Assembly (NCBI GenBank): GCA_022508565.1 | Contig: JAFLUY010000007.1 | Coordinates: 1 to 64,000 of the forward strand | Origin: Erysipelotrichales bacterium | GTDB taxonomy: Bacteria; Bacillota_I; Bacilli_A; RF39; UBA660 | Length of the DNA stretch: 64,000 nt | Direction: 5' to 3' | In this document: one piece after another, positions 2,982 to 60,614 of the stretch | Position numbering within the stretch: position 1 is the stretch's first letter | How the letters are laid out: each line of letters begins with the position of its first letter | Notes under the pieces: generated by a model | What the model saw: the letters and a program-made list of their open reading frames with translations, nothing else | Told to the model about the DNA's origin: nothing | The model's database searches: none | Position numbers and translations under genes: made by a program

Positions 2982-3670
2982 ATGCTTTAGTAACAGGAGG
3001 GTGTAAAGGTTTAGGCAAGATATTTACCTTAGAATTATTAAATCGCGGATATAAAGTATATGCATTATACAATAAAAGTGTTGATGCAGCATTAGAACTT
3101 GAAAATAGTTTTGATAATGTTAGATGCATTAAATGTGATATTAAAAATGAAGCTGAAGTTGAAAGGATTTTGTTTAATATTAATGACATTGATATTATAA
3201 TCAATAATGCAGCTATAGCAATCGATAGTGAATATAAAGATAAAACAAAAAAAGAATTCATGAGAGTTTTAGAAACTAATGTTGTAGGTACTTTTTTAGT
3301 TACTAAATATGCCCTTCAAAGTATGAGTAAGAATGGTGTGATTGTTAATATTAGTAGTAATGCTGCAATCAATGCTAATACAATCTATTCAATGGATTAT
3401 GATGCTTCTAAAGCTGGAGTTAATATGTTGACTAAAGATTTTGCTTTAGTAATTGATAATGAGAAAAATTGTGAAAAGATTATTTCTATTTGCCCAGGTT
3501 GGATAAATACTGAGGAAGTAATGCAGATGAATCCTAACTACTTGGAAGAAGAATTAAAAAGAACTAAACAAAATAAACTTCTTGATAAAGAAGAATTAGT
3601 AAAATATATTTTATATAATTTGGATACTTATAAAAATGGAGACATTATAGAAATAAAGAATATTGGGTGA
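2978..3670 (+). CDS. Short-chain dehydrogenase/reductase (SDR)
   Basis: A 230-residue classical SDR. The cofactor motif TGGCKGLGK is at residues 6-14, NNAA (INNAAIA) near residue 77, the catalytic Ser in NISSNAA, and the YxxxK motif as YDASK near residue 144. This is an NAD(P)-dependent oxidoreductase of unknown substrate, similar to 3-oxoacyl-ACP reductase-like enzymes. It overlaps the P-loop gene by 4 nt, and the following gene begins 4 nt after its stop, so all three are one operon. Confidence 0.88.
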   Translation: MNALVTGGCKGLGKIFTLELLNRGYKVYALYNKSVDAALELENSFDNVRCIKCDIKNEAEVERILFNINDIDIIINNAAIAIDSEYKDKTKKEFMRVLETNVVGTFLVTKYALQSMSKNGVIVNISSNAAINANTIYSMDYDASKAGVNMLTKDFALVIDNEKNCEKIISICPGWINTEEVMQMNPNYLEEELKRTKQNKLLDKEELVKYILYNLDTYKNGDIIEIKNIG

Positions 3671-8729: not shown

Positions 8730-8810
8730 GAAGTAAAATTATTAACTTTATTGTATATGATTAGTAGGATGAGCAATATATAAGTATTTAAGGGAAATTG
8801 TAAATATAAT

Positions 8811-8859
8811 ACATTTGTTCGAAAAATGTATTGACAAAGAAAATATTATATATTAAAAT
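8811..8859 (+). promoter_or_regulatory. recA promoter with LexA (SOS) box
   Basis: ACATTTGTTCG (8811-8821; CGAACAAATGT on the minus strand) matches the first eleven positions of the Gram-positive LexA box CGAACAAATGTTCG. It lies 9 nt upstream of TTGACA (8831-8836), with TAAAAT (8854-8859) after a 17-nt spacer. The same core occurs in the lexA promoter in this window. Confidence 0.75.
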
Positions 8860-8890: not shown

Positions 8891-9901
8891 ATGAAAAAAA
8901 TTGAAACAAATAATGAAGACAAAGATAAAGCATTAGAACAAGTAATGGCTGACATTGAAAAACAATTTGGTAAAGGCGCTATTATGAAACTTGGAAGTGA
9001 TGCTCATATTGAGATTGAAACTACCCCAAGTGGTTCGCTAGCATTAGATATAGCATTAGGAGTTGGAGGATTTCCTAAGGGTAGAATAATTGAAGTATTT
9101 GGACCTGAATCTTCTGGTAAGACAACTATAGCTTTACAAGCAGTTGCTGAAGTTCAAAAACAAGGTGGAAGAGCAGCATTTATTGATGCAGAACATGCAC
9201 TAGACCCAGTTTATGCAAAAAACTTAGGAGTTAATATTGAAGAATTGCTTTTAAGTCAACCGGACACTGGAGAACAAGCTTTAGAGATATGTGAAGCTCT
9301 AGTTAGAAGTAATGCTGTATCTATAGTTGTAATTGACTCTGTTGCAGCTTTAGTCCCTCAAGCAGAAATTGAAGGTGAGATGGGAGATTCTCATGTTGGC
9401 TTACAAGCAAGGCTTATGAGTCAAGCTTTAAGAAAATTAGGTGGAATTATTAATAAGACTAACACAACTGCAATATTTATCAATCAACTTCGTGAAAAAG
9501 TTGGAATTATGTTTGGTAACCCTGAAACAACACCTGGTGGTAGAGCATTAAAATTCTACTCATCAGTAAGATTAGATGTTCGCCGTGGTGAACAAATCAA
9601 AGTGGGAGATTCTGTTATTGGTAATAGAACTAATATCAAAGTTGTTAAAAATAAAGTGGCTCCACCATTTAAAACAGCTGTCGTTGACATAATGTACGGT
9701 GAAGGTGTATCAAGAGAAGGTGAACTTGTTGATATTGCATCAGAAATTGGTGTTATGGAAAAAAGTGGTGCTTGGTATGCATACAATGGTGAAAAGATTG
9801 GTCAAGGTAAAGAAAATGCTAAGATCTTCTTAAAAAATAATCCTGATATAGCTGATGAGGTTGAAGGATTAATTAGAGAACACTACGAATTTAAGGATTA
9901 A
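8891..9901 (+). CDS. recA: Recombinase RecA
   Basis: A 336-residue RecA. It forms ATP-dependent filaments on single-stranded DNA for strand exchange and triggers LexA self-cleavage. Visible features: Walker A GPESSGKT (about 72-79), Walker B VIDSVAAL, loop L1/L2 regions ([30 protein letters not shown]), and an acidic C-terminus slightly shorter than in Bacillus. AGGAGAG precedes the ATG. It is a single-gene unit between a LexA-box promoter and a strong terminator. Confidence 0.98.
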
Positions 9902-10010: not shown

Positions 10011-11564
10011 ATGGAATTTAATACGATGTCCATAATTACTCTTCTTATTGGTCTTGGAGTAGGTGCAGGTTTAATAATAGTTATAACTATATTATTCGGT
10101 GCCAATTCTAGAAGAAAAGCAGAAAAATTATTAAAGGATGCTCAAAAAGAAGCGGAAAAGCATAAAAGGGATGCGTTAGCTGAATTAAAAGAAGAAAGCT
10201 ATAAATTAAAACAAGAAACTGAAAAGGAAATTAAAGAGAGAAAAGCAGAAGTTTTAGCAAGTGAAGAACGACTTTTATCTCGTGAACAATCTTTAGATAA
10301 AAGAGAAGAAATGTTACAAAACAGAGATTCTCTTTTAGAACAAAAAGATAATAATTTAAGTGCTTTACAAAAACAAGTCCAAGAGAAGGAAATTAAAATG
10401 GACGAACTTCTTAAGGAAGAATTAGAAAAATTAGAAAGTATTGCTAAATACTCTAAAGAAAAAGCTCATGATGAAATCATGAAAAGGGTAGAAAGTAATA
10501 TGGAAGTTGAAATAGCTGAGTACATAAAAGAAAAAGAAGCAGAAGCTAAATTAGAAGTTGATGAAAAAGCTAAGAATTTATTAGTTAACTCAATGGAAAA
10601 ATATTCTAATGATGTTACTAACATTCAAACAGTTTCAACAATTAGTTTACCTAACGATGAAATGAAAGGTAGATTAATTGGTAGAGAAGGAAGAAATATT
10701 CGTACAATTGAAGCAGTTACAGGAGTAGATTTAATAATTGACGATACTCCAGAGGCTATTGTAATATCTTCTTTTGATCCATTCAGAAGAGAGATTGCAA
10801 AACAAACTATTGAAACATTAATTAAGGATGGAAGAATTCATCCAACAAGAATTGAAGAAATCTATGATAAAGTTTGTAAGGATATGAATGCAAGAGTTAC
10901 AGAAATCGGTAGAGATGCTATATATCAATTAGGATTATCAAAAATAGATCCTGATTTAGTTAATACAATTGGTAAACTTTATTTTAGAACTAGTTATGGT
11001 CAAAATGCTTTACAACATTCAATTGAAGTTGCAAACCTTTGCGGTATTATGGCTGGTGAGCTTGGTGAGAATGTTATGCTTGCTAAAAGAGCAGGTTTAT
11101 TACATGATATTGGTAAAGCTATTGATTTTGAAGTTGAAGGAAGCCATGTAGATATTGGAATTGATATTGCAAAGAAATATCATGAAGATGAAGTAGTAAT
11201 TAATTCAATTGCTTCGCATCATGGTGATACAGCTCAAACAAGTATTGTATCTTGTTTAGTACAAATTGCTGATACAATGAGTGCAGCAAGACCTGGTGCA
11301 AGAAATGATTCAATGGAAAACTATGTTAAACGTTTAGAACAATTGGAAAGCATTGGAAACTCATTTGCTGGTGTTGATAAATCATACGCAATGCAAGCAG
11401 GTAGAGAAATTAGAGTTTTGGTTAAACCAGATGAAGTTGATGATTTAACAAGCTTTAAGATTGCTCGTGAACTAAAAGATAGAATAGAAGCAGAAATGCA
11501 ATATCCTGGAACAATTAAGATTACAGTTGTTCGTGAAACAAGAGCACAAGAAGAAGCAAAATAA
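10011..11564 (+). CDS. rny: Ribonuclease Y
   Basis: A 517-residue membrane-tethered endoribonuclease that starts mRNA decay in Firmicutes. Order of domains: N-terminal transmembrane helix (about 8-27), long charged coiled coil (about 35-195), KH domain (GRLIGREGRNIRTIEAVTGV, about 222-241) and HD domain (LLHDIGKAIDFE about 363; SHHGD). Full family length. AGGGAATAT with upstream GGAGG precedes the ATG. The Bacillus recA-pbpX-ymdA neighbourhood is recognisable. A small hairpin (AACTTC / GAAGTT, 9969-9986) lies in the leader. Confidence 0.97.
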   Translation: MEFNTMSIITLLIGLGVGAGLIIVITILFGANSRRKAEKLLKDAQKEAEKHKRDALAELKEESYKLKQETEKEIKERKAEVLASEERLLSREQSLDKREEMLQNRDSLLEQKDNNLSALQKQVQEKEIKMDELLKEELEKLESIAKYSKEKAHDEIMKRVESNMEVEIAEYIKEKEAEAKLEVDEKAKNLLVNSMEKYSNDVTNIQTVSTISLPNDEMKGRLIGREGRNIRTIEAVTGVDLIIDDTPEAIVISSFDPFRREIAKQTIETLIKDGRIHPTRIEEIYDKVCKDMNARVTEIGRDAIYQLGLSKIDPDLVNTIGKLYFRTSYGQNALQHSIEVANLCGIMAGELGENVMLAKRAGLLHDIGKAIDFEVEGSHVDIGIDIAKKYHEDEVVINSIASHHGDTAQTSIVSCLVQIADTMSAARPGARNDSMENYVKRLEQLESIGNSFAGVDKSYAMQAGREIRVLVKPDEVDDLTSFKIARELKDRIEAEMQYPGTIKITVVRETRAQEEAK

Positions 11565-47094: not shown

Positions 47095-47131
47095 AAAATA
47101 TTATAGAATATATATAGAAAGGGCTGTTTTG

Positions 47132-48259
47132 ATGAATAGTTTAAGAATGACAAGTGCAGATGAAATTACCATGCGTTTAGTTCATTATTTTGTAACTAAA
47201 GAAAATTATCAACCTATTGTCGTTAATGGACTTGAAAATGAAATCTGGCTTGAAAACACAGAAAAACGTTATGAAGTAATTAGAATAAATAGCAATTATA
47301 TTCATAATGATGAACAATTAAATTTTGATATGTTTAAAGCTAAAGCAGTTATAAAACAAATTAAAAGAAAAATGTTTTCATTAAATTGTAATACTTTAAA
47401 TATAATGCTAAATGTCAGTGATAATGTTACATCGCTAGATTCTGGCTATAAACATATGGATATTGTAAAAGTTGATGCTACAAAAACATTAGATAAAGAA
47501 GAAAATATTACATCATTGTTTCCGGATATTGTTAATGATAAAATTGATTCCCTTGATGATATGGATTTCTTTATAAATGTTACTCAAGATATCAATAAAT
47601 CAACCGAAAAGAAAAACAGATTATATGAAAAAACGTTTAAGAAAAAAACAATTGTAGTCACTTATGCTTTAATAGTTATTAATACACTTATTTTTATGTT
47701 AGAACTATTAGGATTAGTTAATATTAATTATTTTGCAACTAGTCCAACCGCAATTAGAGCTGGACACTATTGGGTAATACTTACTTCTGCTTTCTTACAT
47801 GCAGATATAATACACCTAGTATGCAATATGTGGTCATTATATATAATTGGTACACAACTTGAAACAGTACTTGGTAAAGTTAAGTTCTTAGTAGTTTACT
47901 TTGTAAGTGCTATAGTTGCTTCTTTGCTAAGTGGAGTACTTACTGGTGGAGCAGCAATAGGAGCAAGTGGAGCTATATTTGGGCTTATTGGAGCGCTTCT
48001 ATATTTCGGATATCATTACAGATTATATTTAGGAAATGTAATTATTCGTCAATTAGTTCCCGTTGTAATTCTTAATTTGCTTATTGGTTTTTCACTATCA
48101 AATGTTGATAACTTTGGACATATTGGTGGATTACTTGGTGGTGTATTTAGTGCTATGATGGTTGGTGTTGAAGGTAAGAGTGAAAAAAGCGATATTATAA
48201 ATGGTGTTATAATATCTTTAACATTAATTGTATTCTTACTTTATATGATTTTACGATAA
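47132..48259 (+). CDS. Rhomboid-family intramembrane serine protease
   Basis: A 375-residue protein. An N-terminal cytoplasmic domain of about 170 residues resembles that of GluP. Then six or seven membrane helices carry the rhomboid catalytic dyad: GASGAIFGLIG (Ser, about 284) and NFGHIGGLLGG (His, about 331), plus HADIIHLVCNMWSL. GAAAGGGCTG precedes the ATG. The substrate is unknown. Ends with a strong terminator facing lexA. Confidence 0.92.
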   Translation: MNSLRMTSADEITMRLVHYFVTKENYQPIVVNGLENEIWLENTEKRYEVIRINSNYIHNDEQLNFDMFKAKAVIKQIKRKMFSLNCNTLNIMLNVSDNVTSLDSGYKHMDIVKVDATKTLDKEENITSLFPDIVNDKIDSLDDMDFFINVTQDINKSTEKKNRLYEKTFKKKTIVVTYALIVINTLIFMLELLGLVNINYFATSPTAIRAGHYWVILTSAFLHADIIHLVCNMWSLYIIGTQLETVLGKVKFLVVYFVSAIVASLLSGVLTGGAAIGASGAIFGLIGALLYFGYHYRLYLGNVIIRQLVPVVILNLLIGFSLSNVDNFGHIGGLLGGVFSAMMVGVEGKSEKSDIINGVIISLTLIVFLLYMILR

Positions 48260-48282: not shown

Positions 48283-48312
48283 GCAAAAAAAAAGAGACTT
48301 CAGCCTCTTATA
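48283..48312 (-). terminator. Terminator of lexA
   Basis: On the minus strand, an AAGAGgctgaagtCTCTT hairpin is followed by a run of T (complement of A-run 48284-48292). Confidence 0.8.
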
Positions 48313-48934
48313 TTTTACGATATAGACCAATTGCCTTTCCTAAGATAACACAATCACTCAAAATTATTGGTGCAAGATTATCGTTTTCTGGTTGTAATCT
48401 AATATGATCTTTCTCTTTATAAAAAGTCTTTAATGTAACTTCACCATCTTCAGTCATGGCGACAACTATATCACCATTTTTAGCAACTTTTTGTTTTTGT
48501 ACAATAACGATATCTTTATCATAGATACCAACATTTATCATTGAATCTCCAGAACACATAAGAGTAAAAATAGATTCTTTTGCAGGTATTAAACTTGCTG
48601 GCAAAGTAAAGAAGTCATTTGGATTTTCGATAGCTTCAATCGGATTACCACAGGCAATTTTACCAAGTAATGGAACAGATACAACATCTTCTTTTTCTTC
48701 TTTTATTTCAAACTCATTATCAACTAATAATTCTATTGTACGGAACTTAGAATTTTGTTTTCTAATAAATCCTTTAGCTTCTAATTCTTTTAAATGGGTA
48801 TGTGCTGTAGCCGGGCTAGATAAACCCATACCTTGGCATATTTCCCTTACTGATGGTGGGAAGCCATGCGACACAATATATTTTTTTAAAAATGTTAATG
48901 TTTCATCTTGTTTCTTAGTTAAATCTTTACTCAT
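48308..48934 (-). CDS. lexA: LexA repressor
   Basis: A 208-residue SOS repressor. N-terminal winged helix: FPPSVREICQGMGLSSPATA (about 25-44). C-terminal S24 latent protease: Ser in MCSGDSMINVG and Lys in EVTLKTFYK. The self-cleavage site reads GKIACGNP, i.e. Cys-Gly in place of the usual Ala-Gly. Boxes of the form CAAACAAATGT overlap its own promoter, so autoregulation is expected. AGGAGGAA precedes the ATG. Divergent from a small membrane-peptide gene. Confidence 0.96.
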   Translation of the reverse strand: MSKDLTKKQDETLTFLKKYIVSHGFPPSVREICQGMGLSSPATAHTHLKELEAKGFIRKQNSKFRTIELLVDNEFEIKEEKEDVVSVPLLGKIACGNPIEAIENPNDFFTLPASLIPAKESIFTLMCSGDSMINVGIYDKDIVIVQKQKVAKNGDIVVAMTEDGEVTLKTFYKEKDHIRLQPENDNLAPIILSDCVILGKAIGLYRKI

Positions 48935-48954: not shown

Positions 48955-48994
48955 ATAATACCAAACAAATGTCCAAATGTCAAACAAATGTTTA
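48955..48994 (-). promoter_or_regulatory. lexA promoter with two embedded LexA boxes
   Basis: Minus strand: TTGACA (complement 48978-48983), 17-nt spacer, TATTAT (complement 48955-48960). Plus-strand boxes CAAACAAATGTCC (48962-48974) and CAAACAAATGTTTA (48981-48994) cover the spacer and -35. Confidence 0.8.
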
Positions 48995-49008: not shown

Positions 49009-49054
49009 CGAACAAACGTATTGGTGTTTAGAAATTTATATGTTAAATTATAAT
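49009..49054 (+). promoter_or_regulatory. LexA-like box and -10 upstream of the SOS micro-gene
   Basis: CGAACAAACGTATT (49009-49022) matches the left part of the SOS box; TATAAT lies at 49049-49054, 20 nt before the ATG. The -35 region is poor. Confidence 0.6.
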
Positions 49055-49073
49055 TGTAGAAAGGAGTGATAAT

Positions 49074-49211
49074 ATGATTAGCTTATTAGACAAGTATAAA
49101 GGAGGGATTTTATTTATATTAGTTTTTGTGTTCATGTTTAACTTGTATTCTAACCGAATTAAAGAACTCAATCAACTTGAACAGACTAATATAGCTTTCT
49201 ATGAAGAATAA
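49074..49211 (+). CDS. 45-residue single-pass membrane peptide, candidate SOS division inhibitor
   Basis: A 45-codon frame starting MISLLDKYKGGILFILVFVF and ending FYEE. One membrane helix (about 11-25) is followed by a charged, helical C-terminal tail (NRIKELNQLEQTN). AAGGAG lies 7 nt before the ATG. The gene is divergent from lexA with LexA-like boxes between, the position held by yneA in Bacillus, but it lacks the LysM domain of YneA. Size and topology resemble other SOS division inhibitors (small membrane peptides such as SidA). It ends in its own terminator. Function is inferred from position and topology. Confidence 0.65.
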   Translation: MISLLDKYKGGILFILVFVFMFNLYSNRIKELNQLEQTNIAFYEE

Positions 49212-49225
49212 ATCATTTATTACTT

Positions 49226-49261
49226 AAAAAATCTTTACGGTTAATATTGTAGAGATTTTTT
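49226..49261 (+). terminator. Terminator after the SOS micro-gene
   Basis: AAATCTTTAC / GTAGAGATTT stem (one G-U) followed by T-run. Confidence 0.8.
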
Positions 49262-49314
49262 ATTTGCCTTTTCTATTCTATATTATTATAATATCTTACT
49301 AAAGAAGTGATTTT

Positions 49315-50163
49315 ATGGATATAATAACTTATGATGATTTATTAGCTTATTATGATGAGCATTTTAAACTAGTAGATAAAGAATTATTTCGTATAGTTAT
49401 AAATGAGTTTTTAGATATAATTGGTGAAAAAATTAATTTTGAAAACGATGATTATATCACTCTTGCTACAAGTATTAAGCGTTATTTTTTTTATGAATCT
49501 GAATATGTTGAATTGTGGTTTGATTTATTAAAAAAACATAATTACAGTATGAAATCAGAAATAAAAGACATAATTGATCAACTGACTTCTTTACCTTTTC
49601 CTAATCTTAATAAAAGATTAATAAAAAAACTACTTAAATCTCCTGTTGTTGATGATATTAGTTATAACGGTAAAGGAGGGTTTACAATAATTAGTCCACA
49701 GTATGGCGAAATAAAGCTTATGCATACTAAGGAAGTTTTTAAAGATATTAAACAAGTAAAAAAATATATGAAGGATAATATAACAAATTGTTGTCATGAT
49801 AATACATATTATTTATCCGGTGGATTCTTAAATATGTATTCGATTACTTCTTTGGCAAACCATTATTTCAATCACCCTTTTTATCACTCATATACATATG
49901 ATAAAGAAATAGATTGTGTTATTGATTTATCTTTAAAATGCGCAATGGAAAAGAAAACATATGATTTAATAATAGAACCAAAAGAAATAATAATGATTCA
50001 AAATAGAGATATACCACAAATATTAGCAAACGTAGAAAGTAAAACGGAACAACCAGAAAAAAGATGTCAGTTACTGAAGATAGCTTTATATGAACAACTT
50101 AATAATATAAGTGCTGAAGAAATAAATAAAATTTTAACGTATAAAAATTCTATTAAGCGATAA
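49315..50163 (+). CDS. Unknown protein, paralogue A, with Cys-His / YHSY / IDL motifs
   Basis: A 282-residue soluble protein. The C-terminal half has an ordered set CCHDN (Cys159-Cys160), YSITSL, HYF, FYHSY (His191), VIDLS (Asp204), and MEKK then EPKEI; the same set occurs in the next gene. Cys-His-Asp in this order and spacing is reminiscent of papain/transglutaminase-like folds, but no family could be named. GAAGTGAT precedes the ATG. A TATAAT-like -10 lies at about 49285, so it has its own promoter. Confidence 0.7.
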   Translation: MDIITYDDLLAYYDEHFKLVDKELFRIVINEFLDIIGEKINFENDDYITLATSIKRYFFYESEYVELWFDLLKKHNYSMKSEIKDIIDQLTSLPFPNLNKRLIKKLLKSPVVDDISYNGKGGFTIISPQYGEIKLMHTKEVFKDIKQVKKYMKDNITNCCHDNTYYLSGGFLNMYSITSLANHYFNHPFYHSYTYDKEIDCVIDLSLKCAMEKKTYDLIIEPKEIIMIQNRDIPQILANVESKTEQPEKRCQLLKIALYEQLNNISAEEINKILTYKNSIKR

Positions 50164-50226: not shown

Positions 50227-51111
50227 ATGGAAAATCTAGAATTAGATATTTTGTATTTAATTTTTAACTATTATGAGATAAATAGTTCTTTTCGAAATGG
50301 CGAAATTTTTATGAGTTTGGTAGATGATTTTAGCAAGTTAATAAATCAGCCTATTTACTATCCTTATTATAAAAATGCAGCAAATCATGAACAGGGGATA
50401 ACTATTGGTTATTATTTAATGCGTCAACTTGTATTTGGCCAACAATACCAATGTTATTTTTTAGATGCTTTAAAAAGTAAAAATTATTATATGAAAACAT
50501 TTATTAAAGACTTAATTAAAGAATTAGGTAGTGCTAAAGATAAAAGTAGAGCTGAAGAAATAATTGATAGGTATAAAAGATTACCTATGATAAATAATGT
50601 TAAATTTAATGGGTTAGATAAATATACAATAGAAACTACTTATGGCGCTTATTCATTTATTCTCGCTGATAAAGTCTTACAAGATGAAGAAATAATAGAA
50701 TATATGAGAGCGGAAAATCGAATAAAATCTTGTCATAATAATGCTACTATGTTACTTAATAGTTCTGATGATTTATATTCTATATGTTCTTTATGTCATC
50801 ATTATTTTGTTGATTCTTATTATCATTCTTATGGCTATATAAAAAGTAAAGACTCGATTATCGACTTATGTTCTAATATGTTAATGGAAAAAACACCATT
50901 TGATGATTTATATGCTCCAAGAGAAATATTGTTTATGCGTAATGATGAATTGAGAAAATTATATTTGGATAAAATAAAAAATATTCAAACTAAACTTGAT
51001 GATAAAAGCATATTAAAGTGTGCTTTATATTTACAGTCTTTATGTTTAGATGATAACCCTGACGAAAAGAAACGTGTGCTTGAATTTAATGGCATAACAA
51101 ATTTACAATAA
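50227..51111 (+). CDS. Unknown protein, paralogue B, with Cys-His / YHSY / IDL motifs
   Basis: A 294-residue paralogue of the preceding gene. It shares SCHNN (Cys169-His170), YSICSL, HHYF, YYHSY (His200), IIDL (Asp213), MEK and PREI. The N-terminal halves are much less alike, so the conserved part is a catalytic-like or binding core. No signal or membrane segment. The gene has its own upstream TATAAT and a terminator before it, so the two are independently transcribed duplicates. AGGGAGTG precedes the ATG. Confidence 0.7.
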   Translation: MENLELDILYLIFNYYEINSSFRNGEIFMSLVDDFSKLINQPIYYPYYKNAANHEQGITIGYYLMRQLVFGQQYQCYFLDALKSKNYYMKTFIKDLIKELGSAKDKSRAEEIIDRYKRLPMINNVKFNGLDKYTIETTYGAYSFILADKVLQDEEIIEYMRAENRIKSCHNNATMLLNSSDDLYSICSLCHHYFVDSYYHSYGYIKSKDSIIDLCSNMLMEKTPFDDLYAPREILFMRNDELRKLYLDKIKNIQTKLDDKSILKCALYLQSLCLDDNPDEKKRVLEFNGITNLQ

Positions 51112-59871: not shown

Positions 59872-59990
59872 AACGGCCTCCATAAAATTAATTGTTATTA
59901 TAACATAAATTGTTAATTTTCTAAAAAATTGTCGAATTTTTGTTTGAGTAATGTTATAATTAATTAAATGTTTAGTAAGAGGGTGGATAT

Positions 59991-60614
59991 ATGGAATATT
60001 TAGATATTTATGATGAAAATGGAAACCATTTAGGTAAAGAAGAAAGAAGTGTAGTACACGCGTTGGCTTTATGGCATAAGACAGTTCATTGCTGGCTTTT
60101 TGATAAGGAAGGCAATATATATTTTCAAATAAGAAAAGATGAAGGAACTTTTTATACTACAGGTTCTGGCCATATTCAAGCTGGTGAAAGCGTTAAAGAA
60201 GGTTTTTATCGCGAGATAAAAGAAGAAATTGGTATTGAAGTTGATATTGATAACTGTATACTTGTTGATGTTGTTAATTTTGTTATGGATAGGTCTAATA
60301 AAGATGGATCTGTTTTTAGAGATCGTGCTTTTGCTAATGTTTATATATGTGATTTTGAAGAATCAATTGATGCCTTTAAATTTGATACAAATGAAGTTAA
60401 AGGTTTAGTTAAAATGACTGCAAAAGATGTTTTAGCTTTAATAAGTTCAGAGGTTGACTCTATAAATGCAACTTATATAGTAGCAGATAATGATAAAAAT
60501 ATAAGTTATGAAGAAACTGTTACAAGAGATAATTTCTTAGTTAATCCTGGAGAAACTATTTTAGGAAAATATGGAGATGTAGTAAGAAAGGTTATTGAGG
60601 TAACAAGTAAATAA
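59991..60614 (+). CDS. Nudix hydrolase (IPP-isomerase-like subgroup)
   Basis: A 207-residue protein. Complete Nudix box GHIQAGESVKEGFYREIKEE followed by IGI (about 57-79). The N-terminus EYLDIYDENGNHLGKEERSV and HKTVHCWLFD resemble IPP-isomerase/YfcD-type Nudix proteins. Pyrophosphatase activity on an unknown nucleotide derivative is likely. GAGGGTGG precedes the ATG. Followed after 9 nt by the HD-domain gene: one operon with it and the ABC exporter. Confidence 0.88.
   Translation: MEYLDIYDENGNHLGKEERSVVHALALWHKTVHCWLFDKEGNIYFQIRKDEGTFYTTGSGHIQAGESVKEGFYREIKEEIGIEVDIDNCILVDVVNFVMDRSNKDGSVFRDRAFANVYICDFEESIDAFKFDTNEVKGLVKMTAKDVLALISSEVDSINATYIVADNDKNISYEETVTRDNFLVNPGETILGKYGDVVRKVIEVTSK

Follow-up and report, generated by a model that had tools for sequence, protein, structure and literature searches.

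A very short, lexA-linked membrane peptide of uncultured gut Bacilli, probably an inhibitor of cell division, and its homologues in phages

The stretch of DNA considered here (the window, 64,000 nucleotides) belongs to a 1.69-Mb genome bin, the named relatives of which are metagenome-assembled gut Bacilli, including Candidatus Coprovivens. Its lexA gene occupies positions 48308–48934 of the minus strand, and the product contains the Pfam domains LexA_DNA_bind and Peptidase_S24 and scores 216 bits with the NCBIfam lexA model (cut-off 111). A rhomboid protease gene (47129–48259) adjoins lexA. Divergently from lexA, on the plus strand, an ATG frame of 45 codons (49074–49211) encodes a one-helix membrane peptide, MISLLDKYKGGILFILVFVFMFNLYSNRIKELNQLEQTNIAFYEE. 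On the same strand, the frame is preceded by the ribosome-binding site AAAGGAG (49060–49066), the sequence of which is kept across the genus, and followed by an AU-rich intrinsic terminator consisting of a hairpin and a T tract (49225–49262; −15.7 kcal/mol, z −5.95). The stem of this terminator is kept 3' of the peptide stop in nine congeners; being AU-rich, the hairpin was missed by a simple terminator scan. Two genes of unknown family (49315–50163 and 50227–51111), whose products are mutually related (28% identity, E 4e-33), lie between the peptide gene and miaB, and they look inserted, since miaB is found directly 3' of the peptide gene in the congeners L002 and L003.

A frame of 45–47 codons was found at the same place in all eight other genomes of the genus. 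In comparisons within the genus, pN was lower than pS in 36/36 pairs, and the pooled pN/pS was 0.51 for the peptide frame (a rough figure, because synonymous sites are near saturation) against 0.78 and 1.35 for the other two frames. Differences at the three codon positions of the peptide frame amounted to 0.37, 0.26 and 0.49, with the third position dominating. Judged by these comparisons, 49074–49211 is a real gene, the frame of which is under purifying selection in the genus. Beyond the genus, lexA loci were gathered without reference to the peptide, and in the family clade it was present at 87 of 104 of them, mostly with a length of 43–53 residues; truncated versions occur at two loci. On the LexA tree, which is a quick tree with many weakly supported branches, this pattern of presence needs about ten changes, and it is consistent with a peptide ancestral in the family clade and lost about ten times in a scattered manner. 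As read from the sequences, inheritance of the peptide has been vertical, in its place beside lexA. A sequence-only reading of the window had proposed a 45-codon frame with a good ribosome-binding site and its own terminator and had named a lack of conservation in relatives as a refutation; the data given above support the frame and its terminator and show it to be conserved. Genome G226 contains two lexA genes (contigs C20 and C85) with the peptide beside one of them. At L156, in genome G057 of another family, lexA is accompanied by a small membrane ORF of a different kind, MFNKFCLFIYSYRYLIGFYF...EVFAYQKK, which lies behind two boxes and gave no match to the profile of the peptide family.

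In the encoded peptide a short N-terminus leads into one hydrophobic segment, after which come a polar linker and a hydrophobic end. The peptide of the window has a single uncharged hydrophobic stretch at residues ~9–27, and AlphaFold2 with the family alignment gave one helix comprising residues 2–35 (pLDDT 82), in agreement with the one membrane helix of the sequence-only reading. The pattern common to the 87 peptides is K-[KE]-Y-x-G-V-I-x-F-Y, the rest of the helix, [NS]-x-R-x3-L-N and a variable polar linker. Hydrophobic residues make up 0.66–0.76 at positions −6 to −3 from the C-terminus versus about 0.2 in the linker, and a polar residue follows. No charged residue occurs in the helix core of 78 of 85 peptides, and the N-terminus is basic, with a mean net charge of +1.9 in the family. 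By the positive-inside rule, basic segments flanking a membrane helix stay on the inner side, and because of this N-terminus the peptide is predicted, from charge alone, to be oriented N-in/C-out. No Pfam or NCBIfam family matches it. Neither a LysM domain, which the sequence-only reading had also found lacking, nor a match to the YneA model NF010723 (E<=0.1) was found in 28 members of the family.

The intergenic region contains several LexA-like boxes, which were scored with a matrix trained on 78 loci outside the genus. The best score in the window (14.4) belongs to CAAACAAATGTTTA at 48981–48994, which overlaps the −35 element of lexA and is nearly invariant in the genus; a weaker box (8.1) is situated on the lexA side at 48962–48975. 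On the plus strand, the alignment of nine congeneric promoters places the −35 element of the peptide gene at 49021–49026 (TTGGTG) and, after a 17-bp spacer, the −10 element at 49044–49049 (TAAATT), with an alternative −10 element, TATAAT, at 49049–49054; a consensus promoter scan gives TTTAGA-16-TATAAT instead. The box CGAACAAACGTATT (49009–49022, plus strand, score 10.1) abuts this −35 element. It has two mismatches to the palindrome, is not outstanding alone (18 such matches in the window at 14.6 expected) and ranks about fourth in the 64 kb by the matrix. In eight of the nine aligned promoters a box lies within the spacer, TTGACA-[CGAACN4GTWYG]-TAAATT, with a weaker match in L007. The segment of the window aligned with this operator, TTTAGAAATTTATA (49027–49040, plus strand), scores −15.8 and appears as a decayed former main operator; only in the window species has the spacer operator been lost and the −35 element weakened. 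The box at 49009–49022 is, according to the same alignment, the counterpart of an auxiliary upstream box in L004, L006 and L009. The LexA-like boxes of the sequence-only reading thus stood as a property of the family, in which a box precedes nearly every copy, and had to be revised for the window itself, where the box that was pointed out is auxiliary and the main operator has decayed. LexA control in the window species is likely to be weaker than in relatives; it is still plausible, because the box before recA in the same genome (about 8808–8821, minus strand; recA ATG near 8893), which has the same form and serves as an internal control of the regulon, is also located directly upstream of the −35 element of its gene.

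Across the family clade, a box scoring above the 99% level of the null within 75 nt before the ATG was found in 86 of the 87 peptide loci, mostly with a box-to-ATG spacing of 31–39 nt; in 15 loci with a spacing of 54–61 nt it may reflect lexA's own box. The peptide is absent from 11 loci, and nearly all of these retain a single box, the one proximal to lexA; L136 has a second box close to the first, and L027 has weak ones. At three loci (L258, L260 and L273) chromosomal copies of the peptide are unlinked from lexA, one of them adjoining murC, and a box is situated 36–37 nt before their starts. The suggestion that the box serves lexA alone was rejected, because the box disappears where the peptide is lost and persists at relocated copies.

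The general box pattern with one mismatch showed no enrichment over the genome (33 matches versus 71 for the reversed control), and therefore only a stricter pattern and the matrix were used. The strict pattern CRAACAWWYGTWY has seven matches in the 1.69-Mb genome. Four sites precede recA, lexA, the peptide gene and a Y-family (ImpB/MucB) polymerase gene, in the promoter of which the box was located (L142; G000 C34:110526), and three are inside ORFs; a small SOS regulon is a credible reading of these matches. By the matrix, CGAATTTTTGTTTG at 59933–59946 ranks second in the window (13.6); it lies between the −35 and −10 elements of an ORF that starts near 59992 and reads like a Nudix hydrolase, possibly a further LexA target.

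Using a profile search of relatives and IMG/VR viral contigs, six homologues of the peptide were found in phages and prophages, all of them without a LexA box. In the prophage L171 (copy at 3046–3195) the gene order is repressor, small helix-turn-helix gene, peptide, DnaD-like helicase loader, the annealing protein Erf, RecE-like nuclease and SSB. The copy of L170 (8909–9079, minus strand) has a small early gene on one side and, on the other, a gene of the replication region that is followed by Erf; that of L259 (3073–3225, minus strand) lies between early genes and genes for a primosomal protein and DnaB. The IMG/VR viral contigs L256 (2724–2912), L288 (peptide core at 3241) and L293 (peptide core at 11196) carry the others. 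The slot between early regulatory genes and a replication-initiation gene is common to 6/6 copies, in four different replication modules. Hydrophobic composition as the sole cause of these matches was rejected, since for each of four copies tested 0/500 composition-matched shuffles reached the profile score. Scans of viral sequences with two single phage peptides as queries gave no relative (one matched its own contig only), and a search of a phage collection gave no match.

The nearest lexA-linked relative of the L171 copy is the peptide encoded in the genome of its own host, and the other copies are closest to other host lineages, which suggests repeated capture of the peptide by phages, within the weak phylogeny that such short sequences allow. 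The broad distribution in hosts points to the direction from host to phage. In our opinion, the chances are slightly better than even that temperate phages repeatedly captured a host SOS checkpoint peptide, dropped the LexA operator and placed the gene under early lytic control, by which host division would be stopped during replication. Division inhibitors of phages and prophages include Kil of lambda (PMC3961180), DicB of Qin (PMC10448788) and Gp0.4 of T7 (PMC13423816). These are small phage genes that stop host division, and the six copies would be of the same kind. The difference is that the copies found here are homologues of a lexA-linked host peptide; we know of no evidence that Kil, DicB or Gp0.4 is a homologue of the host's own SOS inhibitor. 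Phage-borne homologues of this type appear to be undescribed in the literature searched, in which no description of the peptide family was found either.

A transketolase gene is located downstream of the peptide gene at some loci, as it is downstream of yneA in Bacillus. Further likenesses to YneA of Bacillus subtilis are the position beside lexA, the LexA box and one helix with a basic start; in contrast, the LysM domain essential in YneA is missing from the peptide, which also differs by the lack of a match to the YneA model. The helix of YneA binds TM7 of FtsW and localises when alone but does not inhibit, LysM being needed (PMC13396833), and YneA is cleared by YlbL and CtpA (PMC6051672). 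At the outgroup loci L138 and L139, proteins with a transmembrane segment and LysM occupy the position of the peptide and match the YneA model at 5e-13 and 2.5e-14, below the cut-off of the model. The family profile gave no match to these two proteins (about 1 bit or less); descent of the peptide from YneA by loss of LysM would be possible.

Lack of LysM in an inhibitor at this position has a precedent in SosA of Staphylococcus aureus, which has 77 residues and is divergent from lexA and LexA-controlled (PMC6851548). Compared by description, the peptide resembles it in its divergence from lexA, one N-terminal helix, a predicted outside C-terminus and the absence of LysM, and in both cases the C-terminal end is proposed as a protease signal; the last ten residues of SosA appear to signal turnover by CtpA (PMC6851548). 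However, SosA is longer than the 45 residues of the peptide and needs a conserved outside segment, so that its form lacking 30 residues is inactive (PMC6851548). In Caulobacter crescentus, late division proteins are the target of SidA, a small membrane peptide induced by SOS (PMC6851548, PMC13396833), the predicted binding site of which is on the other side of FtsW TM7 (PMC13396833); SidA comes from an unrelated lineage and shares with the peptide small size, membrane location, the absence of a large outside domain and, presumably, SOS induction. The peptide shares features with the functional class of SosA, YneA, ChiZ and DivS: its gene runs divergently from lexA and is preceded by a LexA box, and hydropathy, charge and the model indicate a single N-terminal helix, with a C-terminus predicted to be outside.

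By analogy with these systems, this very short, LysM-less, lexA-linked membrane peptide probably inhibits division, as the sequence-only reading had proposed. We infer this function from position, architecture and the likeness to SosA and YneA, together with the phage early-operon homologues, which fit a peptide useful for halting host division. It is fairly likely, in our opinion, that it represents the lineage's minimal SOS checkpoint peptide, a LexA-repressed membrane inhibitor of the septal peptidoglycan machinery. Judging by the boxes and the position, LexA would repress the gene, and DNA damage would release it through RecA-driven self-cleavage of LexA. The peptide would insert N-in/C-out, its helix may bind a component of septal peptidoglycan synthesis, with FtsW as the most likely partner, as reported for YneA, and septum synthesis may then be stalled either by the short segment outside or by the helix. 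After repair, a PDZ protease (CtpA or YlbL) would recognise the hydrophobic C-terminal end and clear the peptide. The window genome encodes three SEDS proteins, five proteins with a transpeptidase domain, CtpA (417 aa) and a Lon_C protein of YlbL size (330 aa). Relatives without the peptide have CtpA, YlbL-like and SEDS genes as well, and nearly all relatives have CtpA/YlbL, so that co-occurrence of these genes with the peptide is uninformative. Against the inhibitor reading are the length of the peptide, close to that of the inactive truncation of SosA, the inability of the YneA helix alone to inhibit, the lack of detectable homology to YneA, and the decay of the main operator in the window species. 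If the peptide inhibits division, it does so with less than SosA or YneA.

Size and LexA control would also fit a membrane toxin of the TisB/DinQ kind, which lowers membrane potential and ATP after SOS induction and slows growth, with the septum not being blocked; DinQ is a toxic peptide with a single helix, and SOS induces it (PMC3567139). Such loci pair with an antisense RNA, however, and no partner of this type was recognised on reading the intergenic sequence; vertical inheritance beside lexA, the polar linker, the conserved hydrophobic C-terminal end and the helix core uncharged in most peptides also argue against a toxin, which we regard as unlikely. The C-terminal end, being of the kind read by PDZ proteases, and the rhomboid gene next to lexA in the window are what could be expected if the peptide were a decoy or adaptor regulating a membrane protease or stress sensor, such as CtpA/YlbL or the rhomboid protease, and not a division inhibitor. 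Relatives that lost the peptide nevertheless retain CtpA and YlbL-like genes, and phage capture into replication operons would be left unexplained by a protease regulator, so that we consider this improbable.

The loss of the main operator and the weakened −35 element, confined to the window species, raise another explanation, according to which the peptide is conserved and translated at a low constitutive level and plays no SOS role in this species. Yet the edge of the −35 element still carries an upstream box that has the form of recA's, and the frame is intact, with 69% identity to that of the congener L006, which has the full operator; an SOS role lost in this way seems to us quite unlikely.

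If the peptide is indeed a LexA-repressed inhibitor of septum synthesis, an entire clade of uncultured gut Bacilli relies on an inhibitor of ~45 residues for its checkpoint, a size near the lower limit for proteins of this type, and the LysM domain of YneA would not be required in general. With about 90 natural variants on hand, the requirements of a bare helix for stopping septum synthesis could be mapped. If the proposed capture took place, the phage copies would show a virus taking over a part of the host cell-cycle checkpoint and would provide an independent handle on the function of the peptide.
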